Assembly: GCA_016196035.1 (NCBI GenBank) | Contig: JACPYM010000021.1 | Location: 1-64,000 of the forward strand | DNA length: 64,000 nucleotides | Direction of reading: 5' to 3' | Origin: Acidobacteriota bacterium | GTDB taxonomy: Bacteria > Acidobacteriota > Blastocatellia > RBC074 | Part shown: in pieces, positions 31,946 to 64,000 of the stretch | Position numbering within the stretch: position 1 is the first letter of the stretch | How the letters are laid out: each line of letters begins with the position of its first letter | Made by a program: the position numbers and the translations under genes | The notes under the pieces: generated by a model | Database searches by the model: none | What the model was told of the DNA's origin: nothing | What the model saw: only the letters and a program-made list of their open reading frames with translations

Positions 31946-32075
31946 GGTAGTCGGTAGCCGGTAGTCAGTCGTCGGTAGTCAGTAGGGGCGGTAGCCGAAA
32001 GCCAATCAAGAGCAACCTATTCAGTTGCGACATCTACTGACTACTGACTACTGACTACCGACGACTGACTACTTG
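31946..32075. repeat. Heptamer-built inverted repeat (GGTAGTC / CTACTGA)
   Basis: Left arm: five or six 7-bp units from 31946 (GGTAGTC, GGTAGCC, GGTAGTC, AGTCGTC, GGTAGTC). Right arm: six units from 32034 (CTACTGA three times, CTACCGA, CGACTGA, CTACTTG). A 25-bp perfect inverted match pairs 31961-31985 with 32048-32072. The right arm includes the TAG stop of the DUF1080 gene. Confidence 0.85.
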
Positions 32076-43024: not shown

Positions 43025-43028
43025 AAAT

Positions 43029-43126
43029 CAAAAGGCAAAAAGCAAAAGGCAAAAGTGCGGAACGCAGCTTTCAAATCGAAAAGCAGTTCCTCATTTTTGC
43101 CTTTTGCTTTTGCCTTTTGCCTTTTG
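43029..43126. repeat. Heptamer-built inverted repeat (CAAAAGG / CCTTTTG)
   Basis: Four 7-bp units (CAAAAGG, CAAAAAG, CAAAAGG, CAAAAGT) at 43029-43056 are answered by inverted copies at 43094-43126 (TTTTTGC, CTTTTGC, TTTTGCC, TTTTGCC). The hairpin exactly fills the gap between the GMC oxidoreductase stop and the next gene start. Confidence 0.8.
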
Positions 43127-60732: not shown

Positions 60733-61617
60733 TTAGCCTTTCGCGCCGTCCATCCCCGCAAGCGCCCCGTACATCTCTGGCCGCCGGTCACGGTAAAACT
60801 GCCAGTGCGTGCGCACCTCGCGGATTTCATCCAAATCCAAATCAGCCACGATCAACTCGTCCTTGTCTTCGCTGCCTTTCGCCAGAATACGTCCGTCGGG
60901 ATTGCTGAAATACGACGAGCCAAAAAACTCGCCGATATTCCACGGCGCTTCGGTACCGACGCGATTGATCGTGCCGACGAAATAGCCGTTGGCGACGGCG
61001 TGCGCGCGCTGCTCTAACTCCCACAGATAATCGGCGTGACCTTTGGTCGTCGCCGACGGGATGAACACAATCTCCGCGCCGTTCAACCCCAACGCCCGCG
61101 CGCCTTCCGGGAAATGCCGGTCGTAGCAGATGTAAACGCCGATGCGCGCGTACTTCGTCTCAAACGTCGGGAAGCCCAAATTGCCGGGCGTGAAATAAAA
61201 CTTCTCCCAAAAGCCCGGCAGGCAATGCGGAATGTGCGTCTTGCGATACTTGCCCAGGTATGTGCCATCGGCGTCAATCACGGCCGCCGTGTTGTAATAC
61301 ACGCCGGTCATTTCTTCTTCGTAAATCGGCGCGACGATGACCATCTTGTGTTGCTTGGCAATCTCCTGCATCAATCGCGTCGTCGGCCCATCGGGGATGC
61401 GTTCGACCAAACCGTACCAATGCGGATTCTGTTCGGCGCAAAAATACGGGCCGTAAAACAACTCCTGCAAGCAAATGATCTGGACGCCCTGTTTGGCGGC
61501 GTCAGCGATCATCGCCACGTGTTTATCAATCATCGCCTGTTTGATCTTTTCGATAGGGCTATCGGCAGGCTCCGCGTTCGTGGCCTGGATCAAGCCGCAT
61601 CTGACAACTCGTGACAT
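60733..61617 (-). CDS. Carbon-nitrogen hydrolase, beta-ureidopropionase/N-carbamoylputrescine amidase type
   Basis: A 294-residue nitrilase-superfamily enzyme with all three catalytic residues: Glu in IICLQELFYGPYF, Lys in YRKTHIPHCLPGFWEKFYF and Cys in IGVYICYDRHFPEGARALG. The GLNGAEIVFIPSATTKGH and GTEAPWNIGEFFGSSYF stretches resemble beta-ureidopropionases, which release CO2 and ammonia from N-carbamoyl-beta-alanine at the end of reductive pyrimidine breakdown. GGAGG precedes ATG 61617. Upstream in the same strand are a luciferase-like monooxygenase and an SsnA-type aminohydrolase. Confidence 0.9.
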   Translation of the reverse strand: MSRVVRCGLIQATNAEPADSPIEKIKQAMIDKHVAMIADAAKQGVQIICLQELFYGPYFCAEQNPHWYGLVERIPDGPTTRLMQEIAKQHKMVIVAPIYEEEMTGVYYNTAAVIDADGTYLGKYRKTHIPHCLPGFWEKFYFTPGNLGFPTFETKYARIGVYICYDRHFPEGARALGLNGAEIVFIPSATTKGHADYLWELEQRAHAVANGYFVGTINRVGTEAPWNIGEFFGSSYFSNPDGRILAKGSEDKDELIVADLDLDEIREVRTHWQFYRDRRPEMYGALAGMDGAKG

Positions 61618-61635
61618 AGAAAAATCCTCCGAAGA

Positions 61636-61719
61636 AGATGCTAGATGCTGGATGCTGGATGCTAGTGAAGAAAGACGTCTTCTCCCCACTCACATCTAGC
61701 ATCCAGCATCTAGCATCTG
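61636..61719. repeat. Heptamer-built inverted repeat (AGATGCT / CATCTAG)
   Basis: Four 7-bp units at 61636-61663 (AGATGCT twice, GGATGCT twice) are answered by CATCTAG, CATCCAG, CATCTAG, CATCTG at 61693-61719. A 19-bp perfect inverse match pairs 61636-61654 with 61700-61718. It fills the gap between the nitrilase start and the next gene's stop. Confidence 0.85.
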
Positions 61720-63145: not shown

Positions 63146-64000
63146 TCAGTCTACAAATCGTGCCCACACGTTCGTCGCCAGTTCGCGGCTTTTCGCTGTG
63201 ATCTCTGCTTCGTCCAGAAACACCAGTTGCCGGTCTTTCATCAACACCTTGCCCGCGCAGATGGTCGTCGTCACCATTGAATTTTCAAAGCCAAACAGGA
63301 TGTGCCACGGCAGATTGCCAGCGTTGAGCGGCGTGGTCGGGTGATAGTCCACAAAGATAATGTCGGCGAATGCGCCCGGCGTGAGTACGCCCAGCGGCGC
63401 TTGCGGAAAGAAGACGCTGGCGAGCGCAGCGTTGTTGGTCACGGCCATCTCGGCGACGGTCGCGCCACCCATCCGGCGCGGGTCGCGGTGCGCGGCTTTG
63501 TGCGAAAGGTAGGCCGCTTTCCATTCGTCCCACATCGCGTTGGAAAAGCCATCGTTGCCCAGGCCGACCTGCACGCCCAATCGCAGCAAGCTTTCCACGT
63601 CTGCCGCACCGACGGCGTTGTTCATATTCGAGCGCGGTTGATGCGTCACCCAGGTGCCAGTTTCGGCCAGCAACGCCGCTTCGCGATGATCAATGTGGAC
63701 GGCGTGCGCAACGACGGAGCGTTCACCCAAGATGCCGAACTTGTGCAGCCGGTCAATCACGCGCAGACCGCTCTTTTGCAGACTGTCAGACTGGTCGGAT
63801 TCGTGTTCAGCAGCGTGAATGTGAAAGCCGCCATCGTGGGTATTGCGGCAGGCTTCCAGCGTCGCATCAGATAGTGTCAGCGAAGCATGCAGACCGAAGG
63901 TGGCGGCTATTTGCGATTGCGAATTTGAAATTTGAGATTTCAGGAAGCGCAGATTTTCAGCAATGCCAGCTTTGGCTTTTTCTTCGCCAGCGCGGTCGGT
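63146..64000 (-). CDS. SsnA-like aminohydrolase (chlorohydrolase family), N-terminus beyond the window
   Basis: The frame is open to the edge (64000), giving 284 residues of the C-terminal part. GFHIHAAEHESDQSDSLQ holds the third metal histidine and the catalytic glutamate, VVAHAVHIDHREAALLAETG another histidine, and LGVQVGLGNDGFSNAMWDEW the metal aspartate of the TRZ/ATZ/guanine deaminase group. The closing block FFPQAPLGVLTPGAFADIIF, then AGNLPWHILFGFENSMVTTT, matches SsnA. It probably deaminates or opens a purine-like compound. A tandem array of 7-bp units at 63909-63943 is embedded in frame (residues KSQISNSQSQIAA). The gene heads the amide/nucleobase group. Confidence 0.85.
   Translation of the reverse strand, partial: TDRAGEEKAKAGIAENLRFLKSQISNSQSQIAATFGLHASLTLSDATLEACRNTHDGGFHIHAAEHESDQSDSLQKSGLRVIDRLHKFGILGERSVVAHAVHIDHREAALLAETGTWVTHQPRSNMNNAVGAADVESLLRLGVQVGLGNDGFSNAMWDEWKAAYLSHKAAHRDPRRMGGATVAEMAVTNNAALASVFFPQAPLGVLTPGAFADIIFVDYHPTTPLNAGNLPWHILFGFENSMVTTTICAGKVLMKDRQLVFLDEAEITAKSRELATNVWARFVD
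63909..63943. repeat. Five 7-bp tandem units inside the SsnA-like gene
   Basis: ATTTGCG, ATTGCGA, ATTTGAA, ATTTGAG and ATTTCAG in a row (plus strand), on the consensus ATTTGAR. They encode a serine/glutamine-rich insert without stops. It has the same 7-bp pitch as the intergenic heptamer hairpins. Confidence 0.75.

Follow-up and report, generated by a model that had tools for sequence, protein, structure and literature searches.

Coding DNA is expected to be cleared of tandem repeats whose unit length is not a multiple of three. A run of 7-bp units inside the gene of a conserved enzyme raises the question of whether it is a genuine array, whether it is peculiar to one strain, and whether a process that makes 7-bp arrays between genes acts in coding DNA as well. 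Such a run had been pointed out in an SsnA-like amidohydrolase gene from an acidobacterium. The window, meaning the whole stretch of 64,000 nucleotides that was analyzed, comprises positions 1–64000 of contig JACPYM010000021.1 (G000:C21), which belongs to an assembly of 9.59 Mb and 139 contigs (G000, hereafter the home genome).

A 7-bp array in an SsnA-like gene

The gene and the array occupy the following positions.

63146..64000, minus strand: SsnA-like amidohydrolase gene, an ORF with its 3' 284 codons within the window and open to the window end.
63909..63943, minus strand: degenerate 7-bp-pitch array of five units, residues 178–189 (LKSQISNSQSQI), called from its sequence, its lag-7 identity, and orthologous arrays at the same columns.

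The complete gene encodes 442 aa and is equivalent to 63146–64474 of the contig, with its start at the equivalent of 64474. The protein matched Pfam PF01979 (E 1.4e-23), and the partial protein, the only form scanned, matched NCBIfam NF005540 with an E-value of 4.6e-91 and 305.7 bits against a cut-off of 444. The minus-strand frame of 63146–64000 is free of stops and includes ENLRFLKSQISNSQSQIAATFGLHASL, and the coordinates, strand, and stop-free translation of the array, LRFL-KSQISNSQSQIAA-TFGLHASL, were borne out. The units are approximately AATCTCA, AATTTCA, AATTCGC, AATCGCA, and AATAGCC on the coding strand, and ATTTGCG, ATTGCGA, ATTTGAA, ATTTGAG, and ATTTCAG on the plus strand. The first-pass annotation had described five ATTTGAR-type units; five units at 7-bp pitch are present, but only two of them fit ATTTGAR.

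The lag-7 identity of the array is 19/28. At this score, period 7 forms 7 clusters in the 64-kb window, none in five shuffles, and each of six other periods forms 0–2; at the lower score of 18/28, one of the five shuffles shows one period-7 cluster. The stretch thus consists of head-to-tail 7-bp units beyond chance, as in a heptanucleotide simple sequence repeat. No inverted pair was found in 63850–63990, and the coding array is accordingly not a palindromic or MITE-like insert of the Rickettsia palindromic element type. The ssnA units AATCTCA, AATTTCA, AATCCGC, and AAACCGC contain no run of three G or C and do not qualify as G-quadruplex repeats. In a 21-base window the home array scores 16/21, under the 17/21 cut-off used in the multi-gene counts below. 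Taken alone, it is modest, and it is made secure by its orthologs, which score 20–21/21 at the identical place.

Ordinary low-complexity coding sequence with chance periodicity is hardly credible as an explanation. The score within the window alone is modest, TRF giving 2.7 copies and a score of 31 with a floor of 30, but this reading is refuted by the four orthologs, whose arrays in these columns are perfect or nearly so, and only 9 of 2,160 random 67-bp segments from loci L111–L146 reach 16/21.

In an AlphaFold model of the G006 ortholog built with 36 sequences (mean pLDDT 94.2), the array spans the end of helix 164–183 and loop 184–188 up to the next strand. This placement over a helix end and loop agrees with the earlier proposal that the site lies in a tolerated loop.

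The ssnA site in orthologs

Among 58 genomes including the home genome, four close orthologs of the SsnA-like protein were found (G003, G006, G008, and G009) with 84–89% protein identity, the next best having 42%. DNA alignment revealed a 7-bp-pitch array at the same place, of the same length, and without a gap in all five acidobacterial genes (5/5), and no length variant occurs at the site among these five species, each represented by one genome. The arrays of the four relatives are as follows.

G003 and G006: (AATCCGC)4 plus a partial unit, 21/21 each.
G008: AATCCGC twice, then AATCCAC twice, 20/21.
G009: (AAACCGC)4, 21/21.

A scan of the collection returned 44 ssnA loci, mostly from Chloroflexota, three of which were the sister genomes again. 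The loop count comprises 44 loci, five acidobacterial and 39 others, with each loop-covering locus entered once; L109, L110, and L147 (repeat sister genomes) and L151 and L152 (loop uncovered) were dropped, and L138 and L143, identical in the loop stretch, were nevertheless entered as two. One of the 39 more distant orthologs, L131 from an Anaerolineales MAG, has a clear array (20/21) of the unrelated unit CAGTGAG/CAGGAGG. The other 38 have ordinary loops with lag-7 scores of 6–14 of 21; L114 (Anaerolineae), considered as a second independent array, was rejected at 13/21, which is no better than an ordinary loop (14 for L127). Near the start of the same Anaerolineales ssnA-like gene we also noticed a second heptamer array, of ACTCGTT/ACCCGTT units (L131:3107–3132).

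The array had been thought to be an insertion unique to this strain. Same-length arrays at the site in the four sister genomes exclude this idea; in addition, the ordinary loop of several array-less orthologs (e.g., L112, L113, and L146) is just as long, so that the array adds no net length when measured against these. The opposite outcome, named in advance as evidence against a repeat, was that distant SsnA proteins would share the same conserved, ordinary residues. This was also excluded, since the loop varies among the 36 sequences of alignment A2 and seven class-level relatives (L024–L030) show no 7-bp periodicity at the loop (6–8/21). The description of the loop as Ser/Gln-rich suits the home genome's unit but not the site, where relatives encode NPQSAIR- or KPQTANR-type peptides. 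These results indicate that the observation first made at this locus stands in a weakened form, namely, as a real but degenerate array.

Period 7 across the home genome

The window also contains three 7-bp-pitch hairpins, listed here without an assigned strand.

31946..32073: hairpin with GGTAGTC / CTACTGA arms (31947–31985/32034–32072), the right arm between called ORFs.
43025..43126: hairpin between called ORFs with CAAAAGG / CTTTTGC arms (43031–43063/43086–43118).
61636..61718: hairpin with AGATGCT-type arms (61636–61667/61687–61718), of the same pitch as the coding array.

The 7-bp hairpins that had been cited as intergenic do exist, as three inverted pairs whose longest arms are 85–91% complementary. 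The left arm of the third (61636–61663) falls within called ORF 60733–61689 and probably lies upstream of the true start of that ORF as inferred here.

In a 675-kb sample of the home genome, which was chosen by contig order rather than at random and from whose genome-wide rates targeted loci were kept out, we detected 34 period-7 runs (score ≥14) and none at period 7 in shuffled sequence. Other periods from 4 to 16 gave 0–5 runs each, save the harmonic 14 with 25 runs. The unit vocabulary is narrow, as the 46 arrays in the sample fall in 22 of 1172 possible classes. Because period 7 is an outlier and arrays lie deep inside ORFs, the core of the earlier interpretation, that the process making 7-bp arrays acts in coding DNA too, is supported; its other part, the strain-unique insertion, is not. 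Two further loci of the home genome were noted. At L057:5651–5896 (G000:C2), five heptamer arrays of GATGCTA, GGATGCC, and CTAGCAT types cluster between called ORFs, apparently as a compound hairpin. At L017:11240–11310 (G000:C8), within a 1144-aa ORF, CAGCCCC units with GGGGCTA/GGGGGTTA upstream resemble, by eye, a whole heptamer hairpin that is translated.

Three consecutive AATCCGC units (AATCCGCx3) divide the 11 family assemblies into an array-rich group, with 63 matches in G000, 159 in G003, 24 in G006, 42 in G008, 52 in G009, and 14 in G010 (overlapping matches counted), and an array-poor group (G001, G002, G004, G005, and G007) with none; one of the latter assemblies, from the same genus, is 73% complete. 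This patchy distribution over six and five genomes, the narrow vocabulary, and the paired inverted arrays in the window would suit mobile or copied arrays, spread by ectopic gene conversion or by a putative insertion machinery, as palindromic elements enter genes in frame. We nevertheless regard mobility as improbable: neither target-site duplications nor shared flanks were noticed by eye in the alignments, and the behavior of individual sites described below also speaks against it.

Change of unit at the ssnA site

In the ssnA gene tree, G003 lies outside a group of the home genome, G006, G008, and G009 (UFBoot/SH-aLRT 98/97 for protein and 96/97 for DNA), which the tree does not order among themselves. 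Because the outside-branching G003 has AATCCGC, as do G006 and, in part, G008, this unit is probably ancestral at the site. Comparison of the register showed that identity peaks at shift 0 in 9 of 10 pairs, a trivial result for pairs that both have AATCCGC. A permutation test on differences stacking at the same unit position was set aside: its values were low in most pairs and it is trivial for internally homogeneous arrays, and only the register comparison was used.

The G009 array differs by a T-to-A change in four adjoining units. Across the 11 family assemblies, AAACCGCx3 occurs at the G009 ssnA site only (two overlapping matches), and G009 has AATCCGCx3 52 times; the change thus most likely arose inside the ssnA array. 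Since the identical change falls on three different codon positions, it would reflect a DNA-level spread within one array and not selection on one amino acid. Import of AAACCGC from elsewhere in G009 was rejected, as this assembly (83% complete) holds no second exact three-unit copy, and the same fact weighs against mobile or copied arrays.

Array sites in other proteins

We followed eight coding sites in seven proteins, namely, the SsnA-like protein, HypF (two sites), ThiD, PurL, CoaBC, a GlcF-like protein, and an Fe-S/CCG-domain protein; the six besides the SsnA-like protein were chosen by eye from longer array lists, not at random. ThiD, PurL, CoaBC, and HypF scored above the family cut-offs and GlcF below, and the Fe-S protein was assigned by Pfam. 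An array was called at ≥17/21 lag-7 identity in a 21-base window, and array-rich genomes were those with AATCCGCx3 matches. Arrays were present in 29 of 37 cases in array-rich genomes (22/29 once the eight query rows are removed; seven of these pass, and the home ssnA, at 16, is scored as lacking an array). In array-poor sisters the count was 0 of 23. The background was 4 windows of ≥17/21 in 103,959 other bases of the same genes. Inclusion of the partial loci L159, L227, and L238 moved the counts from 28/36 to 29/37 and from 0/21 to 0/23. We excluded eight HypF rows of 45–49% identity as probable paralogs (L156, L157, L162, and L163 at two sites; G000, G003, G004, and G008), and no array occurs in any of them. 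The rows of this protein from G002 (49.5%) and G005 (46%) stayed in the count as array-poor cases, with some doubt as to whether they are orthologs.

The units found at the two sites with the greatest variety are listed below.

CoaBC: AATCTCA (G000); AATCCGC (G003, G008, and G009); ACCACCG (G010); ACTCCCG (G006).
GlcF-like: ACCCAAC (G006); AATCCAA (G010); AATCCGC (G008); ACTCCCC (G003); none in G000.

In CoaBC, all six array-rich genomes have an array, with four units in all and every score at 21/21, and G002, G004, and G007 have none. The GlcF-like gene has arrays in four of five array-rich genomes, again with four units, and PurL in five of five (17–19/21) with at least three different units. 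HypF site 2 carries TCCAAAA in G008 and ACTCCGC in G000 at equal length, with G006 scoring 15. The Fe-S protein has arrays in three of four array-rich genomes (CATCTCC in G000; AATCCGC in G008 and, at 19/21, in G009; none in G006). A constant 7-bp pitch with a changed unit is therefore seen at ssnA, CoaBC, PurL, the GlcF-like gene, HypF site 2, and the Fe-S protein (L054). At ThiD (three of six array-rich genomes) and HypF site 1 (two of three), the array-bearing genomes all have AATCCGC and no unit change is shown; at HypF site 1, the array-less G006 is exactly 21 bp shorter. Within the home genome, two paralogous 652-aa proteins (48% identity) have AATCTCA versus AATCCGC arrays at nearly the same position, and the paralogs L017/L185 have CAGCCCC versus CAATCCG arrays. 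Across PurL, CoaBC, HypF, and the amidohydrolase, arrays recur at fixed sites, and the near-perfect unit often differs from one genome to the next. On the G008 and G009 contigs (G008:C11 and G009:C465), the purL and ssnA-like genes, both array-bearing, lie within a few kilobases of each other.

The CoaBC arrays of G003 and G006 are of equal length and share 0 of 32 bases in register. Replacement of such dissimilar units at constant length is a further point against mobile arrays. The unrelated units at one site speak for independent births, in which every lineage separately builds an array in one permissive loop from short native heptamer matches in conserved codons, with no persistence of arrays through time. 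The CAGTGAG/CAGGAGG array of the distant Anaerolineales L131, with an unrelated unit in the ssnA loop, points in the same direction, as does a possible native seed in the paralogs L183/L193 (which we take to be of the DUF1501 family), where Asn-Pro codons spelt AATCCGC adjoin AATCCGC arrays. By contrast, recurrence in 22/29 cases in array-rich genomes, with 0/23 in sisters, at the chosen sites seems to exceed by far what births scattered at random over thousands of loops would yield, and at ssnA the length is identical and the register mostly conserved, the latter partly trivially. The conserved register favors descent at ssnA, and the 0/32 shared bases favor re-seeding or independent birth at CoaBC. 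We consider independent births throughout to be a possible but rather unlikely account.

Between array-bearing genomes, 41–49% of fourfold-degenerate sites differ in ssnA, 35–53% in CoaBC, and 42–57% in PurL. Perfect arrays despite this 35–57% divergence must hence be recent or maintained and are not passive relics of a common ancestor. A heptamer array of at least three units is read in all three frames and stays open only with a stop-free unit. AATCCGC is stop-free on both strands, and of 14 arrays with 50 or more codons between them and either ORF end, 12 read NPQSAIR and not LRIADCG, a bias expected if only a hydrophilic loop is tolerated; this count rests on greedy ORF calls at loci selected for AATCCGC arrays in G000 and G003, with gene strands not curated.

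The arrays in the followed genes mostly have 4–5 units (28–37 bp), the lower limit being fixed by the test. This size resembles the four-unit preference reported for GGGAATC repeats (PMC4692102) and a four-unit Geobacter family (PMC2700814), and the pitch recurs at fixed sites while units change. Both features could be taken as signs of selection for an array or peptide with a role in protein binding or in tuning translation of the enzyme, the pitch being read and not the unit. We find this very unlikely, because sister genomes and most distant orthologs have open genes without arrays, the peptides are wholly different between units, and the home genome's own copy is degenerate (16/21).

Proposed mechanism of array turnover

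On balance, we think it fairly probable that the arrays result from a slippage-like 7-bp turnover, from which genes retain only frame-keeping steps, stop-free units, and tolerant loops. The ssnA stretch would belong to a set of short 7-bp tandem arrays spread over the genome; a DNA process akin to slippage, advancing 7 bp at a time, would both create and refresh them, and the enzyme would gain nothing from their presence. Within genes, arrays would be tolerated only with a stop-free unit, with the frame kept (three units being 21 bp or seven codons), and in a surface loop or linker. Array sites would last long within the array-rich group, and the unit at a site would be swapped as a whole. In the cycle that we envisage, a five-unit array would lose three units (21 bp), the remaining one or two would mutate or be re-seeded from neighboring codons, and three units would then be regained, so that a regular array built of another unit stands where the old one was, at its former length. 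Pitch, recurrence at sites, change of unit, perfection of arrays in spite of high synonymous divergence, and a coherent change restricted to one array (AAACCGC in G009) are observed directly, whereas slippage as the agent and the 21-bp cycle are proposals.

Several observations run against parts of this scheme. Among five species the ssnA site shows no length variant, and hence no direct sign of the 21-bp cycle. The CoaBC arrays of G003 and G006, which share no bases in register, are easier to reconcile with wholesale re-seeding or independent birth than with stepwise change. Persistence of sites is incomplete, arrays being absent from some array-rich genomes at ThiD, the Fe-S protein, and the GlcF-like gene. 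The narrow vocabulary, moreover, is not predicted by plain slippage on random seeds and suggests copying between arrays or a seed preference.

Set beside its relatives, a repeat that is marginal by itself becomes a single case of a broader behavior. It suggests a route for a DNA-level process that keeps rewriting protein loops and linkers, and it offers a natural experiment on the old question of why bacterial repeats favor 7 bp.

Comparison with known heptamer repeats

Heptamer repeats as such are known; what appears to be new is their conservation at sites within core coding genes together with the switching of units. Among the literature matches listed, none describes a switch of unit at a conserved coding site, and the array peptide and DNA strings had no match in the papers of the literature searched. 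As described in PMC4679880 and PMC4692102, Mrazek et al. (2007) found heptanucleotides to be the commonest category of long simple sequence repeats in most genomes studied, and contact with the polymerase has been proposed as the cause of slippage. The arrays reported here have the same 7-bp pitch as those repeats, but the coding regions in that study favor units divisible by three, whereas we find 7-bp arrays in core enzymes, at conserved sites and with switched units.

For the GGGAATC / GGGGA(C/T)T repeats of Xanthomonas and Nostoc, PMC4692102 reports a preference for four units and positions common to two Xanthomonas species, in both cases for one G-rich unit. That single G-rich family is read as G-quadruplexes and is under-represented in coding DNA; the acidobacterial arrays are of similar size and have many unrelated units at the same coding site. 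Since AATCCGC, AATCTCA, AAACCGC, and ACCACCG have no G-tracts, G-quadruplexes cannot be the common cause, although some units at other sites (ATCTCCC, ACTCCCG, and ACTCCCC) do hold a run of three C. Unit-specific explanations of heptamer repeats in other bacteria are weakened to that extent.

The TAACTGA repeats of Beggiatoaceae are likewise dispersed heptamer arrays with a minority inside ORFs; in the part of PMC4679880 available, they differ in having a single unit, in lying mostly just upstream of start codons with intragenic ones mostly at protein ends, and in that no unit switching is seen. The Geobacter metallireducens elements resemble ours in having four tandem heptamers between and within genes but have one consensus in 49 copies and a proposed role as regulatory RNA (PMC2700814). 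Rickettsia palindromic elements are also in-frame repeats tolerated in unrelated metabolic genes; they are palindromes of ~150 bp with a conserved peptide (PMC10969869), unlike the short 7-bp tandem arrays described here. A bolder reading, which we hold to be doubtful, is that this acidobacterial group has an active, perhaps enzymatic, process that rewrites 7-bp arrays of ~4–5 units at stable sites including core genes, swapping the unit wholesale while site, frame, and often length stay. The heptamers of Xanthomonas, Nostoc, Geobacter, and Beggiatoa would then be frozen or single-unit outcomes of such a process.
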